Positions 14,343 to 59,166 of a stretch of DNA of 64,000 nucleotides are shown in pieces (the first letter of the stretch is position 1; each line of letters opens with the position of its first letter). The DNA is from Flavobacterium sp. BFFFF1. Its GTDB lineage: Bacteria > Bacteroidota > Bacteroidia > Flavobacteriales > Flavobacteriaceae. The stretch spans positions 85,735-149,734 of the forward strand of contig NZ_NKJE01000004.1 of assembly GCF_002256285.1 (NCBI RefSeq), read 5' to 3'. The notes beneath the pieces are model-generated. The model searched no databases. It had not been told where the DNA came from and was given only the letters and a program-made list of their open reading frames with translations. Made by a program: the position numbers and the translations under genes.

Positions 14343-15443
14343 TTAGTTTTGCATCCTTTGGATGAATTCATCAAAAAGATAGGAAGAATCGTGTGGTCCC
14401 GGGCTCGCCTCCGGGTGATACTGTACGGAGAAGCAGTTTTTTGACAGCATTTTCATCCCGGCGACGGTTTGGTCGTTAATGTGAATCTGGACAATTTCAA
14501 TATCCGGATGCGCTTCAACTTCTTCCCTGTTAACAGCAAAGCCATGATTCTGCGACGAAATCTCGCCTTTACCAGTAATAAGATTTTTCACCGGGTGGTT
14601 AATGCCGCGGTGGCCGCCAAACATTTTGAAAGTGGAAATCCCATTGGCCAAACCAATAATCTGGTGACCGAGACAGATGCCAAATAAGGGCTTATCGTTT
14701 GCCAGAATTTCTTTGGCCACTTCGATTACGCCCTCAAGCGGCTCAGGATCACCGGGACCGTTTGAAAGGAAATAGCCATCAGGATTAAAAGCAGCCAGTT
14801 CTTTATACGTCGCGTTGTATGGGAAAACTTTAATATAACAATCTCTTTTCGCAAAATTGCGCAGGATATTTGATTTAATCCCGAGGTCCAAAGCGGCAAT
14901 GCGGTACGTAGCGTTTTCGTCGCCAAAAAAATAGGGTTCAGTCACAGAAACTTTGGATGCCAGTTCAAGACCTTTCATGTCCGGAACGTTGGCCAATGCC
15001 AGCTTTAGATCTTCGATTGAAGTACCATCGGTACAAATGACGGCGTTCATAGCGCCGTTATCGCGGATATAAGCGGTCAGCGCGCGGGTATCAACATCGG
15101 AGATGCCTATCAAACGTTGTTCTTTGAAATAATCTTCAAGGCTTTCGGATGCACCGACACGGGAATAATTGTAACTAAAATTGCGGCAAACGAGTCCGGC
15201 AATTTTTATGGAACCCGATTCGACTTCGTCCTCGTGTACACCATAATTCCCGATATGGGCATTTGTCGTAACCATAATTTGCCCGAAGTAAGAAGGATCG
15301 GTAAAAATTTCCTGGTATCCTGTCATTCCGGTGTTGAAGCAAAGTTCACCAAAAGTGGTTCCTGAAATCCCGACGGACTTGCCGTGGAAAACGGTGCCAT
15401 CACTTAAGAGAAGAATGGCTTTTTGTCGTGTTGTGTATTTCAT
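14343..15443 (-). CDS. carA: Carbamoyl-phosphate synthase small subunit
   Basis: This is the glutaminase subunit that supplies ammonia to the large subunit for carbamoyl phosphate, the precursor of pyrimidines and arginine. The 366 residues include the N-terminal CPSase_sm domain (LLLSDGTVFHGKSVG, FNTGMTGYQEIFTDPSYFGQ). The class I glutamine amidotransferase domain has its nucleophile Cys in FGICLGHQI and its His-Glu pair in VQYHPEASPGPHDS. carB is not adjacent. Two -7-like boxes, TAAATTTG (15484-15491) and TATATTTG (15495-15502), lie upstream, so it likely has its own promoter after the rplQ terminator. Confidence 0.97.
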   Translation of the reverse strand: MKYTTRQKAILLLSDGTVFHGKSVGISGTTFGELCFNTGMTGYQEIFTDPSYFGQIMVTTNAHIGNYGVHEDEVESGSIKIAGLVCRNFSYNYSRVGASESLEDYFKEQRLIGISDVDTRALTAYIRDNGAMNAVICTDGTSIEDLKLALANVPDMKGLELASKVSVTEPYFFGDENATYRIAALDLGIKSNILRNFAKRDCYIKVFPYNATYKELAAFNPDGYFLSNGPGDPEPLEGVIEVAKEILANDKPLFGICLGHQIIGLANGISTFKMFGGHRGINHPVKNLITGKGEISSQNHGFAVNREEVEAHPDIEIVQIHINDQTVAGMKMLSKNCFSVQYHPEASPGPHDSSYLFDEFIQRMQN

Positions 15444-15542
15444 TATTAGCAGTGAGAATTGAGTAGTTAGATGTTGTGTGCTGCAAATTTAATCCAAATA
15501 TAATCGATTGAAAAAAATAGTTATAAGCCGACTGTTCATAAT

Positions 15543-15644
15543 TAGCCCCGATGGCAGCGGCATCCTTTTTTGTTTTAAAAAAAGCGCCGTTTCATTTGGC
15601 ACGTCAAAAACAAAAAAGATAAAGCGGACAGCGGGAACAGCTCC
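15543..15644 (+). ncRNA. Intergenic hairpin element, copy 1 (candidate structured RNA)
   Basis: The left arm begins TAGCCCCGATGGCAGCGG and the right arm ends AGCGGACAGCGGGAACAGCTCC, split here because of length at GGACAGC/GGGAACAG. An ATCCTTTTTTGTTTT/AAAACAAAAAAGAT stem lies between them. Similar arms occur at 42576-42655 and, inverted, at 58948-59026. The position of the central C in CCC pairs with a G in GGG here, while the other copies have G and C. It lies between the rplQ terminator and the carA promoter. The structure is almost self-complementary, so the active strand is uncertain. It may belong to the Flavo-1 RNA family, recalled but not tested. Confidence 0.5.
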
Positions 15645-15650
15645 AAATTA

Positions 15651-15691
15651 AAAACAAAAAAAAAGGACAAACTAATAAAAGTTTATCCTTT
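15651..15691 (-). terminator. Terminator of the ribosomal protein block (after rplQ)
   Basis: On the minus strand AAAGGATAAAC and GTTTGTCCTTT form an 11 bp stem with one T-G pair, followed by a long T run. It begins 25 bases after the rplQ stop and would end the long ribosomal transcript. Confidence 0.82.
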
Positions 15692-17469: not shown

Positions 17470-18075
17470 TTATTTGTTGTACAATTCGACGATCAGCTGT
17501 TCTTTGATGTTTTCAGGAATCTGCAATCTTGCAGGTACTGATACGAAAACACCTTCTTTAGTATCGTTGTTCCAGGTAATCCACTCATATACATGAGAAG
17601 AGTTTGAAAGGGAACGTTCGATAGATTCCAATGATTTTGATTTTTCACGAACAGCGACTTTATCGCCAGGTTTTAAATGGTATGATGGAATGTTAACATT
17701 CTCGCCATTTACGGTAATGTGTCTGTGCGATACAATTTGACGGGCACCTCTTCTTGAAGACGCAATCCCCATTCTGTATACCACATTGTCCAATCTCGCT
17801 TCGCAAAGCTGGATCAGCACTTCACCTGTTACACCACGTGCAGCAGATGCTTTTTCAAAAAGTCCTCTGAATTGTTTTTCAAGGATTCCGTAAGTGTACT
17901 TCGCTTTTTGCTTTTCCATTAACTGAATCGCGTACTCAGATTTCTTTCCTCTTTTTTTTGCCATCCCGTGTTGTCCAGGAGGGTAATTTCTCTTTTCGAA
18001 GGCTTTGTCATCTCCGAAAATAGCTTCGCCGAACTTACGGGCGATTTTGGTTTTTGGACCAGTATATCTTGCCAT
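17470..18075 (-). CDS. rpsD: 30S ribosomal protein S4
   Basis: uS4 is a primary 16S rRNA binder, and in other bacteria it is the translational repressor of the alpha operon. The 201 residues begin [17 protein letters not shown]. The S4 RNA-binding domain ([20 protein letters not shown], then [20 protein letters not shown]) is intact. An 88-base gap separates it from rpsK, longer than most in this block, so a leader or regulatory site could lie there. No clear pseudoknot was recognised by eye. Confidence 0.98.
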
Positions 18076-18163
18076 TTTAAAAAATTTTGGGCAGCGATTA
18101 TGAATTCAGGTCAAATCCTTCGATAATCTTGAGTGCTAACCCGGTTATACTATAAATTAATAC

Positions 18164-42481: not shown

Positions 42482-42575
42482 TGCTATTGGTTTTGGTTGC
42501 CGTACGCATAACAAACTATCGCCCAAACGAATTTTCGTGCAATTTTGTCAGTTGCGAACCGCTGGTTGATGCGCC

Positions 42576-42655
42576 TAGCCCGGATGGCAATGGAAATCCT
42601 TTGTTTTGCGCTTTTCAGCAAAACAAAGATTGCAATGTACAGCCGGATCAGCTCC
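42576..42655 (+). ncRNA. Intergenic hairpin element, copy 2 (candidate structured RNA)
   Basis: The left arm TAGCCCGGATGGCAATGG and the right arm with CAATGTACAGCCGGATCAGC plus TCC flank an ATCCTTTGTTTTGC/GCAAAACAAAGAT stem. Compared with the other copies, AGCG is changed to AATG in both arms together. It lies in the divergent space between the rhomboid gene and rarA, ending 30 bases before the rarA -7 box, so that promoter would not transcribe it. Confidence 0.5.
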
Positions 42656-42684: not shown

Positions 42685-42692
42685 TAATTTTG
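42685..42692 (+). promoter_or_regulatory. rarA -7 box
   Basis: TAATTTTG lies 4 bases before the rarA ATG, as in many Bacteroidota genes with very short leaders. No TTG is found at the right distance upstream. Confidence 0.45.
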
Positions 42693-42696
42693 CAGC

Positions 42697-43974
42697 ATGG
42701 AAGTACCCTTAGCAGAACGGATTCGCCCTAAAAACCTTGCGGAGTATGTCAGCCAGGAACACCTGGTGGGTCCGAAAGGATCGCTCACTTTACAAATAGA
42801 AAAAGGGATCATTCCTTCGCTTATTTTGTGGGGTCCTCCGGGTACCGGGAAGACAACGCTTGCCGAGATTATTGCGGAAGAATCCAAGCGCCCGTTTTAC
42901 ATCCTGAGCGCGATCAATTCGGGCGTGAAAGATATTCGTGAAGTCATTGACAAGGCAAAACAAAGTGGCGGGTTATTTACTGCAAGAAACCCCATACTTT
43001 TCATTGACGAGATTCACCGTTTCAGCAAATCGCAGCAGGATTCGTTGCTGGCGGCAGTTGAAAAAGGTTGGGTTACACTTATAGGTGCCACCACTGAGAA
43101 CCCGAGTTTTGAAGTCATTCCGGCGTTACTGTCGAGATGTCAGGTTTATATCCTGAACGCATTCTCGAGAGAGGATCTGGAGAAGCTTTTACGACGCGCC
43201 ATTGAAAAAGATGTGTTGCTTCAGAAAAAAAAAATTGAGCTAAAAGAGACAGAAGCATTGCTGCGGCTGTCCGGTGGCGACGGGAGAAAGCTGCTTAATA
43301 TTTTTGAATTGGTTGTCAATGCCTCTCCAAAAGATAAAATAACCATCACCAATCAGGAAGTGCTGCGGCTGGCACAGCAGAATACGGTGCTGTATGATAA
43401 ATCCGGAGAGCAGCATTACGACATTATTTCGGCTTTTATCAAATCCATTCGGGGTAGTGATCCCAACGGTGCGGTGTATTGGCTTGCGCGAATGATTGAA
43501 GGTGGCGAGGATGTCAAGTTTATCGCGAGGCGGATGTTGATTTTGGCGAGTGAAGATATCGGAAATGCCAATCCTACCGCATTGATTATGGCCAACAATA
43601 CGTTCCAGGCGGTTACTGCCATCGGTTATCCTGAAAGCAGGATTATATTGAGCCAATGCGCAGTATATCTGGCTACTTCCCCGAAAAGCAATGCGAGTTA
43701 TATGGCCATTGGCAAAGCGCAACAAATCGTAAAACAAACGGGCGATTTACCGGTACCGTTACATTTGCGGAATGCACCTACAAAACTGATGAAGGAATTG
43801 GGATATGGTGACGATTACAAGTACGCGCACGATTTTACCAATAATTTCGTGGACCAGGATTTTTTACCCGATGCAATTGCCAGTACAAAAATTTATGATC
43901 CAGGGAATAATTCACGTGAAAATGCGACACGCGACTTCCTCAAAAACCGTTGGAAAGACAAATATGGGTATTAA
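42697..43974 (+). CDS. rarA: Replication-associated recombination protein A (AAA+ ATPase)
   Basis: RarA (MgsA) acts at stalled replication forks with SSB. The 425 residues contain Walker [16 protein letters not shown], Walker [11 protein letters not shown], sensor 1 [12 protein letters not shown] and the C-terminal tetramerisation region ([40 protein letters not shown]). Length is normal. The stop abuts that of the convergent downstream gene without a gap or terminator. Confidence 0.96.
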
Positions 43975-57219: not shown

Positions 57220-58929
57220 ATGGCATTATCCGAACAGGAAATACTACGCAGGGAAGCACTTGCAGAATTACGCAGCCTGGGCATTGACCCCTACCCTGCA
57301 AACGAATTCACCACCACCGCCTACTCAACGCAGATTCTTAGCGACTTCGAAAAATTCGAAGGCAAAGAGGTTGTATTGGCAGGAAGACTGATGGGGAAAC
57401 GAAAGATGGGAAAAGCGTCATTCGCAGAACTGAAGGATTCCGAAGGCCGCATCCAGATTTACGTTTCCCGCGATGATATTTCCAATGATGCCGAAAATAC
57501 CATGTACACCACGGTCTTCCTGCGCCTACTTGATATTGGCGATTTTATCGGAATCCGCGGTACCGTTTTTAAGACAAAAGTGGGCGAGATATCGATCCAC
57601 GTAAACGAACTCACGGTTTTAGCCAAAGCCCTGAAACCACTGCCCGTTGTAAAGACCGACGCAGATGGGGTCGTTCACGACGCTTTCGCAGATGCCGAGC
57701 AAAGGTACCGAAGACGTTACGTCGATCTTACCGTAAACGATCACGTAAAGGAAACCTTCATCAAAAGGACAAAACTCTTTAATGCGATGCGCAGTTTCTT
57801 CAACAATAAAGGGTACCTCGAAGTTGAAACGCCCGTCTTACAACCCATCCCGGGCGGCGCCGCCGCAAGGCCGTTCGTCACCCACCACAATGCGCTTGAC
57901 GTTGCGCTTTACATGAGGATTGCCAACGAATTATACCTAAAAAGGCTAATCGTCGGAGGATTCGAAGGGGTTTACGAATTTTCCAAAAACTTCCGCAATG
58001 AAGGGATGGACCGTACACACAATCCCGAGTTTACAGCGATGGAAATTTACGTGGCCTACAAGGATTACAACTGGATGATGAAGTTTACCGAAAACCTCCT
58101 CGAGCACTGCGCTACAGAAGTAAACGGAACTACCGAAGCCACTTTCGGCGAACATACCGTGAATTTTAAAGCACCGTACGCCCGTGTTACCATGACCGAC
58201 GCTATAAAACAATACACCGGTTTCGACATTTCCGGCAAAAGCGAAGCCGAGTTGTTCGAAGCTGCCAAATCGATGGGAATCGAAGTCGACGCGACCATGG
58301 GCAAAGGAAAACTTATCGACGAAATCTTTGGCGCGAAATGCGAAGGGAATTTCATCCAGCCCACATTCATCACCGACTACCCAAAAGAAATGAGCCCGTT
58401 GTGCAAACAACACCGCGACAATCCGGAACTTACCGAACGTTTCGAGTTGATGGTCTGCGGGAAAGAAGTGGCAAACGCCTATTCTGAACTGAACGATCCA
58501 ATTGACCAGGCAGCACGTTTCGAGCACCAGCTGCTGTTGTCTGAGAAAGGCGATGACGAGGCTACACAATTTATCGACTACGACTTTCTGCGTGCTTTAG
58601 AATACGGCATGCCGCCTACATCCGGGCTTGGCATCGGGATGGACAGGCTGATCATGTTCCTCACCAACAATGCGTCCATCCAGGAAGTGTTGTTCTTTCC
58701 GCAAATGCGCCCTGAGAAAAAACAGGTTCAGATTGAGCTTTCTGAAGAAGAGAAACTCATTGTCTCCCTGTTAAAAGCCAATGAAGGCAAAATGGATCTG
58801 GGGACTTTGAAGGTCACAGCAGCACTCAGCGGAAAAAAATGGGATGCCGCCACCAAAAACCTTTCAAAACATGGCCTCATTAAAGTGGCCGTTGAAGGCG
58901 ATTTTAAAACCATGGAGCTGATTTCATAA
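57220..58929 (+). CDS. lysS: Lysyl-tRNA synthetase, class II, with C-terminal extension
   Basis: The enzyme charges tRNA-Lys. The 569 residues have the N-terminal OB fold (VVLAGRLMGKRKMGKASFAE), motif 2 (FSKNFRNEGMDRTHNPEFTA), and motif 3 (GLGIGMDRLIMFL) at about 470-480. About 80 residues continue past the usual C-terminus: an EEEKLIVSLLKANEGKMDLG segment, then SGKKWDAATKNLSKHGLIKV, which looks like a small winged-helix. E. coli LysS has 505 residues. Its own promoter lies just upstream. Confidence 0.97.
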   Translation: MALSEQEILRREALAELRSLGIDPYPANEFTTTAYSTQILSDFEKFEGKEVVLAGRLMGKRKMGKASFAELKDSEGRIQIYVSRDDISNDAENTMYTTVFLRLLDIGDFIGIRGTVFKTKVGEISIHVNELTVLAKALKPLPVVKTDADGVVHDAFADAEQRYRRRYVDLTVNDHVKETFIKRTKLFNAMRSFFNNKGYLEVETPVLQPIPGGAAARPFVTHHNALDVALYMRIANELYLKRLIVGGFEGVYEFSKNFRNEGMDRTHNPEFTAMEIYVAYKDYNWMMKFTENLLEHCATEVNGTTEATFGEHTVNFKAPYARVTMTDAIKQYTGFDISGKSEAELFEAAKSMGIEVDATMGKGKLIDEIFGAKCEGNFIQPTFITDYPKEMSPLCKQHRDNPELTERFELMVCGKEVANAYSELNDPIDQAARFEHQLLLSEKGDDEATQFIDYDFLRALEYGMPPTSGLGIGMDRLIMFLTNNASIQEVLFFPQMRPEKKQVQIELSEEEKLIVSLLKANEGKMDLGTLKVTAALSGKKWDAATKNLSKHGLIKVAVEGDFKTMELIS

Positions 58930-58947: not shown

Positions 58948-59026
58948 GGAGCTTTTCCGGCTGTACGCTTGTATCTTTCTTCAGCTAAAGAAGCTGAAAG
59001 AAAGGATACCGCTTCCATCCGGGCTA
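58948..59026 (-). ncRNA. Intergenic hairpin element, copy 3 (candidate structured RNA)
   Basis: Read on the minus strand it starts TAGCCCGGATGGAAGCGG and ends with AAGCGTACAGCCGGAAAAGC plus TCC. ATCCTTTCTTTCAGC/GCTGAAGAAAGAT forms the inner stem. The arms match copies 1 and 2, while the stem tip differs. It lies 19 bases after lysS, with no other terminator seen for that gene. Confidence 0.5.
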
Positions 59027-59166
59027 GTCCTCGTTTATGGACGCCGATGGTCTTCATCTCGTTTTTTTCAGTGTTTAAATTGTTAAAGGCACCACAAATT
59101 ACGTGAAGCCATTAAACCTAAAAGGATGCACTGCGTCTTATGGCACGTAACTTAAATTTTTAAACA

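Follow-up and report, generated by a model that had tools for sequence, protein, structure and literature searches.

Does an intergenic element that recurs with shared arms and unrelated hairpin tips act as folded RNA or as folded DNA? The question is raised by three copies in the window analysed here (the whole stretch of 64,000 nucleotides from Flavobacterium sp. BFFFF1): copy 1 (15543..15644, plus strand; 5′ arm 15543-15565, tip 15566-15617, 3′ arm 15618-15644), copy 2 (42576..42655, plus strand; 5′ arm 42576-42599, tip 42600-42627, 3′ arm 42628-42655), and copy 3 (58948..59026, minus strand; 5′ arm 59026-59004, tip 59003-58976, 3′ arm 58975-58948).

An initial annotation, made from the letters alone, had described these copies, and direct reading of the sequence recovered all three at these positions and strands, together with the base changes claimed for them. 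The central pair is CCC-C-GAT/AGC-G-GG in copy 1 and CCC-G-GAT/AGC-C-GG in copies 2 and 3, and the GC/GC of copies 1 and 3 (AGCGG/AGCG) becomes AT/AT in both arms of copy 2 (AATGG/AATG). The tips of copies 1, 2, and 3 (52, 28, and 28 bases) are unrelated in sequence, and each is self-complementary.

Family identity and copy number

Membership in the Rfam family Flavo-1 (RF01705), at first only guessed, was borne out by cmscan: copies 2, 1, and 3 match at 42573-42653, 15540-15642, and 58950-59029 with 75.1, 71.8, and 64.8 bits, all above the gathering cut-off of 42 bits, and a laxer search of the window returned the same three Flavo-1 matches. Sequence and fold of the family are shared by all three copies; beyond the Rfam entry, we find additional AGC/GCT pairs in the fold (copies 1 and 2), an A-rich 3′ flank, and variants with side hairpins. 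The window also contains an S4-Flavobacteria ribosomal protein leader (RF03141, 50.1 bits; 18096-18128, minus strand), directly upstream of a 201-aa gene (17470-18075) in a ribosomal cluster.

Flavo-1 has been known since 2010 and is without an assigned function. It was described by Weinberg et al. 2010 (PMC2864571, cited here in part) and is typed ‘Gene; sRNA’ in Rfam; a review (PMC9029176) places it in its section on the most abundant small RNAs. In the literature searched, which lay mostly outside subscription journals, we found no tip exchange and no DNA role for Flavo-1.

The suggestion that such elements are common in flavobacterial genomes proved sound. A search of the whole source genome (3.77 Mb, 68 contigs) for further copies gave 106 matches at E≤0.001, 87 of them above the cut-off; 102 were called intergenic, and four overlap a called gene. 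Among 24 genomes of the same genus, counts range from 0 (as in G018 and G020) to at least 88 (best 89 candidates per genome scored), and an order-wide draw (best 22 candidates per genome scored, under stricter filters than the within-genus count) places Flavo-1 in at least 58 of 196 genomes and at least 17 of 72 genera. Exact matches to the 5′ arm number at least 119, and the 80 listed are mostly from Flavobacterium, with some from Chryseobacterium; the others listed are one record of Epilithonimonas and several MAGs that are either unclassified or from elsewhere in the Bacteroidota.

Fold and covariation

Folded as DNA, copies 2, 1, and 3 have z-scores of −3.65, −1.63, and −5.23, copy 1 on its own being unremarkable; folded as RNA, the scores are −2.78, −1.19, and −4.56. 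A covariance model built from 31 aligned short-tip copies with a specified structure gave 110 matches in 76 genome stretches. In their alignment, which is fitted to the structure and retains three rows that are reverse-strand matches over true copies, 95.7% of 2183 cells of the base hairpin pair. Both-sided changes occupy 473 cells, where shuffling gives 122 ± 9 and sliding 57-104; 19 of 21 pairs show them, and the observed value was not equalled by any of 500 shuffles or by any slide in any of the five measures. The covariation first noticed in three copies is thus real.

The initial annotation went on to read this covariation as selection on a fold, and that step holds in part. Selection is indicated because a 13-base test stretch remains non-complementary in 190 of the 191 copies that could be parsed, out of 225 in three genomes. 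The covariation itself carries less than was claimed, since template switching can yield both-sided changes, and an RNA fold is doubtful. According to the part of PMC8794818 used here, a switch between the arms makes both-sided changes in one event.

Several features bear on the folding molecule and strand. At internal loop 1, GNA faces GNA in 59 of the 82 copies that could be parsed (24 of 106 could not). GNA loops favour DNA; a literature search found no paper on GNA loops in DNA. G.T cells (51) outnumber A.C cells (22) in the Flavo-1 alignment, and the top-strand DNA fold is more stable than the bottom-strand fold in 70 of 87 copies, which together make the top strand the likelier one to fold. 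Tip loops include one GNRA and no UUCG (45 parsed of 106 tips). The low G.U content and the loop types are compatible with RNA too.

Across three genomes, at least eight of the nine outer tip pairs form in 161 of the 189 copies that parsed (36 of 225 did not), with a mean tip pairing of 0.93, in register. The tip can be almost any self-pairing sequence, and the base is the conserved part. Irrespective of the direction of the following gene, the 3′ flank is rich in A (A 0.59 and 0.55, T 0.14 and 0.20; 87 copies), and A stands at 0.28 in the 5′ flank of the same number of copies. Inspection by eye of the copies displayed also showed variants that carry an additional side hairpin, either 5′ or 3′. 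A general outer GGAG/CTCC stem was considered and rejected, GGAG occurring in only 6 of 57 parsed copies.

Position relative to genes, promoters, and terminators

Copy 1 lies between rplQ and carA, antisense to each. A terminator-like hairpin (15662..15691, minus strand; one found, 0.3 expected) separates it from rplQ, and two boxes of the form TAnnTTTG, which we take to be the Bacteroidetes −7 promoter box (15484-15491 and 15495-15502, minus strand), separate it from the carA start at 15443. Copy 2 is upstream of an AAA ATPase gene (42697..43974, plus strand) whose family matches fall below curated cut-offs and which we presume to be rarA; its −7-type box TAATTTTG (42685..42692, plus strand) stands between copy 2 and the start at 42697. 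Copy 3 lies about 20 bp 3′ of the stop codon of lysS (57220..58929, plus strand; lysine--tRNA ligase, TIGR00499, 612.9 bits) and is antisense to it. Near copy 3 we found no terminator-like site, no sigma-70-type promoter, and no TAnnTTTG box, so this copy may be present, as antisense, in the lysS 3′ end.

Gene directions around the copies of the source genome were taken from our own gene caller. Ninety-seven intergenic copies are flanked by genes on both sides: 33 are tandem antisense, 27 divergent, 24 tandem sense, and 13 convergent. At the same loci, spacers (the copies’ own included) comprise 172 tandem, 83 divergent, and 31 convergent, so that copy orientation is about neutral and close to the spacer-type proportions.

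Gene starts facing away from a copy number 117, and 92 of these have a gap of 30-300 bp. TAnnTTTG occurs within that gap in 42 of the 92 (139 of 359 background starts have it) and in the 150 bp beyond the copy in 10 of 92, against about 7.7 expected from density. Copies thus often stand upstream of the promoter boxes of their neighbours. Where the gap is shorter than 30 bp, the box lies beyond the copy in 7 of 18 cases, which makes it probable that some copies are transcribed. An own promoter is not indicated: the 80 bp 5′ of the copy contain TAnnTTTG in 6 of 106 copies against 4.7 expected, which is not above chance. On the reverse side, the box is present within 80 bp in 11 of 106, against the same expectation of 4.7.

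Of the 90 gene ends that face a copy, 42 are no more than 25 bp away and are not separated from it by a terminator; in three of these 42, a terminator follows the copy. Many copies may therefore be in mRNA 3′ ends, copy 3 being an example. Gene ends at least 60 bp from a copy have their own terminator before it in 17 of 29 cases. Overall, a terminator stands between gene end and copy in 20 of 90, compared with 69 of 196 in the background. The reading of Flavo-1 as an intrinsic terminator was rejected: there is no T run (T 0.14-0.20), and terminator frequency is not above background.

No clear replication-strand bias was seen in one complete genome (G010), where the strands of 55 listed copies relative to replication divide 33 to 22, in a tally made by hand with approximate replication ends; a second genome (G088) has no clear GC skew.

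A transcriptome study of F. psychrophilum (PMC9723704, consulted in part) states that Flavo-1 occurs sense or antisense with no preference and that many matches lie outside transcribed regions; it also reports several 5′ transcribed regions that overlap Flavo-1 matches.

Inheritance in place

Three sites were compared across genomes, each by its best 30 loci (of 121, 61, and 61 genomes for rarA, lysS, and rplQ-carA). Upstream of rarA, the model finds Flavo-1 in 12 of 30 loci (our own included) at a like position and in rarA orientation, with weaker scores in L058, L062, and L070; one further locus (L073) has it by eye alone and is outside the 12, and those without the element include L053, the locus of highest identity. 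TAATTTT(A/G), counted by eye, stands immediately 5′ of the rarA start in 21 of 30 loci. The source genome lacks a copy upstream of lysS; one is present there in 16 of 29 other loci (counting the weak matches in L198 and L201), each oriented like lysS and each upstream of a TAnnTTTG-like box. Between rplQ and carA, 8 of 30 loci (our own included) have a copy, always antisense, and in all eight it lies beyond terminator-like sequence following rplQ. With a single orientation at each of the three sites, Flavo-1 is thus inherited in place there; the genes at the rarA and lysS loci compared are about 69-78% identical in DNA.

Longer forms occur at two of these sites. Upstream of rarA they were seen in L058, L062, and L070, the last truncated by a contig end; the additional domain in L058 and L062 (GAGCGACC..GGAAGCTCC plus GCGAGGACTTG) is at the orthologous site. 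Upstream of lysS, several orthologs (L192, L197, L204, L212, L213, and L217) show by eye a locus-specific 3′ extension, located between GGACA and CTGCTCC or CTTC, that holds a further small hairpin.

Tip replacement in orthologous copies of two species

For a comparison of individual copies between two species, we used 54 from G068 and 65 from G123, a few listed matches being omitted. Requiring the same orientation, we paired 41 copies by their flanks, 34 by both and seven by one, which leaves 13 unpaired in G068 and 24 in G123. Inverted pairs were sought separately, which yielded one match by one flank (L305 with the second copy in L355) besides short repeat matches.

In orthologous copies, the arms are kept and the tip hairpin is usually replaced. 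Among 37 pairs parsed roughly, flanks are 87.4% identical and arms 0.87, and tip identity is below 0.6 in 22, between 0.6 and 0.85 in 11, and higher in four. Under a strict definition (both flanks at least 200 bp and at least 80% identical; 23 pairs, 19 parsed), the medians are 88.5% for flanks, 0.91 for arms, and 0.61 for tips, and tip identity is below 0.6 in nine, between 0.6 and 0.85 in seven, and higher in three. In the 12 cleanly parsed strict pairs, none of 200 permutations reached the similarity of the arms and 30 of 200 reached that of the tips. In L267/L276 and L279/L264, the tips differ between partners whose arms are identical.

Tip kinds, scored with crude patterns, differ between the two species: CTCG..CGAG occurs in 10 of 54 copies in G068 and in none of 65 in G123, and for the GGGTT loop the counts are 10 of 54 and 30 of 65. 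The two variable base pairs, followed through the 12 cleanly parsed strict pairs, changed on both sides in 3 of 24 cases and on one side in none of 24; two of the three both-sided changes come from L286/L262, where the whole element may be replaced.

Gain or loss of copies, and probable traces of template switching

The same site can be occupied by a Flavo-1 copy in one species and vacant in another. Two of the unpaired copies were traced further. At the site of L280, a copy of G123, G068 is cleanly empty: the flanks are adjacent there and about 94 bp are missing, an arrangement that fits either gain or loss; the right flank of the empty site is A-rich too. A target-site duplication there was considered and not adopted, the site being ambiguous at this divergence. 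The two flanks of the other unpaired copy, L271 (G068 C1:442467), lie on different contigs of G123, which points to a rearrangement breakpoint at or near the copy.

In L297, the 13-base test stretch of the 3′ arm is the exact reverse complement of the 5′ arm, and its ortholog L329 is ordinary; the arm of L297 is likely a template-switching footprint. The lysS copy of G051 (L214) is by eye a near-perfect palindrome, and the model matches both its strands. Both L297 and L214 are thus perfect or near-perfect palindromes, probably produced via template switching.

Mobility and comparison with known systems

No Flavo-1 match at E≤1 was found near Y1 transposases at the 16 loci scanned of 20, and high-copy genomes without Y1 occur (e.g. 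G004, with 88 Flavo-1 copies and 0 Y1 matches). The RAYT-like Y1 transposase gene of the source genome (L046 1140-2035, G000 C8) is flanked by a repeat of its own, GCGGATTTGCAATCCGTGCC, direct and inverted and unrelated to Flavo-1. Mobilisation by RAYTs was rejected on these two grounds, namely the 16 Y1 loci without adjacent Flavo-1 and the different repeat of the RAYT-like gene. One 5′-arm pattern had no exact match in the viral_contigs set, and blastn found no match of copy 2 in phages and none of copy 3 in plasmids; carriage by phages or plasmids was rejected on the basis of this one pattern and these two single-copy queries. Our searches found no partner protein or transposase for Flavo-1.

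Other hairpin repeats are concentrated within Flavo-1 copies, as counts in the source genome show (G000, loci L081-L158, 76 of 78 scanned), where copies make up about 2% of bases. TCCCGA..TCGGGA modules occur eight times inside and nine times outside; the corresponding counts are 6 and 2 for GACTGCGCTCnGG, 8 and 1 for the GCAGCGnAGCGnAG type, but 2 and 7 for CTCGATACG.

Integron attC sites have a conserved hairpin base, unpaired bases, and a variable terminal structure, and they work as folded single-stranded DNA. Flavo-1 resembles them in its conserved base with unpaired bases and its variable terminal structure, but its copies are single and dispersed, and no cassette arrays were seen.

Like the REP/BIME repeats that accompany RAYTs (PMC2817692, PMC3733652; both drawn on in part), Flavo-1 is dispersed, intergenic, high in copy number, and an imperfect hairpin. 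Unlike them, it is about 76-120 bp long rather than 20-40, its tip is swapped between orthologs, and it has no general GTAG foot and no RAYT seen alongside: GTAG stands at the hairpin foot in 2 of 225 copies, with 141 having another NTAGCCC, 24 another AGCCC, and 58 no AGCCC (variants). We regard Flavo-1 as REP-like in life style, yet not a REP, since it shows neither the GTAG tag as a rule nor, at the Y1 loci scanned, the association with a transposase. The lack of a dedicated transposase is shared by the CGTC repeats, as described in part of PMC3733652, and the table of a 2025 REP survey, in the portion used (PMC12306157), includes two Flavobacterium species. Flavo-1 is also like quasipalindromes under template switching (PMC8794818 and PMC7202029, each in part) in the homogenisation of arms, as in L297, and unlike them in that it retains mismatched loops and exchanges whole tips.

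Discussion

Two of the rival explanations, which are not all mutually exclusive, involve transcripts. Flavo-1 could be a structured RNA, either the product of an sRNA gene or a cis-acting segment within mRNAs, made from neighbouring or cryptic promoters and with the covariation reflecting an RNA fold. The strong covariation, the excess of G.T over A.C, the RNA fold scores of copies 2 and 3 (−2.78 and −4.56, though −1.19 for copy 1), and the transcribed 5′ regions that several matches overlap in F. psychrophilum (PMC9723704, in part) agree with this reading; it is at odds with an own promoter box not above chance, with directions relative to genes that are alike, with boxes located between copy and gene, with the rplQ-carA copies past terminator-like sequence in 8 of 8 loci, and with a 3′ flank rich in A and not in T. 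We consider it improbable. Indeed, an RNA fold is doubtful because of the positions of promoters and terminators and the statement on F. psychrophilum in the part of PMC9723704 available here, and many copies probably lie outside transcripts. Still less probable, in our estimate, is an element of the 3′ end that acts after the stop codon in either direction to end transcription or to protect the end of the mRNA. It would suit the 42 of 90 facing gene ends that are within 25 bp, with no intrinsic terminator between and three with one after, but 27 of 97 copies have a gene start on either side, the gene's own terminator precedes the copy in 17 of the 29 cases where the gene ends at least 60 bp away, and the overall frequency is 20 of 90 against 69 of 196.

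The other two rivals concern DNA. The covariation might be a mutational product of template switching that copies one arm to the other, a reading compatible with the one we prefer and, as a full account, unlikely. The contrast of L297 with L329, the near-palindrome of L214, and the general mechanism (PMC8794818, in part) speak for it, whereas the test stretch that is non-complementary in 190 of 191 copies and the GNA/GNA loop 1 in 59 of 82 count against template switching alone, since repeated switching would erase such loops. The strongest rival, to which we give a minor though appreciable chance, takes Flavo-1 for a non-autonomous mobile DNA (REP- or MITE-like) that is purely selfish, has no host role, and is moved by a putative transposase acting on folded single strands. 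Conservation in place would then be slow decay, tips would come from other inserted repeats, and the account overlaps with our own. Copy numbers from 0 to at least about 100 within the genus, the clean empty site, and the 8 of 17 TCCCGA..TCGGGA modules inside copies that occupy 2% of bases are in its favour; the viral_contigs pattern search and the blastn searches of phages and plasmids that gave no match, the 16 of 20 Y1 loci without Flavo-1, and the copies that 12 of 30 and 16 of 29 loci still have at the same site, with genes about 69-78% identical in DNA, weigh on the other side.

On balance, we lean towards Flavo-1 acting as a folded intergenic DNA hairpin rather than as RNA. The top strand would fold, as single-stranded DNA or as a cruciform, and copies would swap tips through template switching or through short conversion events, with the arms supplying the homology. 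Persistence of the mismatched stretch in 190 of 191 copies suggests that it is being maintained; the base with its G.A loops may be recognised by a protein of the host or of a mobile element, and such recognition would explain the kept mismatches. More tentatively, and as a possibility on which we would not insist, Flavo-1 may represent a new class of DNA hairpin with a protein-recognised tandem-G.A base, tips traded genome-wide by template switching at replication forks, and species-own sets of tips at inherited sites.

Although Flavo-1 is filed as an sRNA, its behaviour here is that of a DNA repeat whose tips can be exchanged. Should it be a DNA element, sRNA counts and annotations would be misleading across Flavobacterium and related genera, and the family would serve as a warning that covariation by itself is no proof of a functional RNA. 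Replacement of tips at fixed sites would, moreover, amount to a natural, genome-wide record of bacterial template switching.
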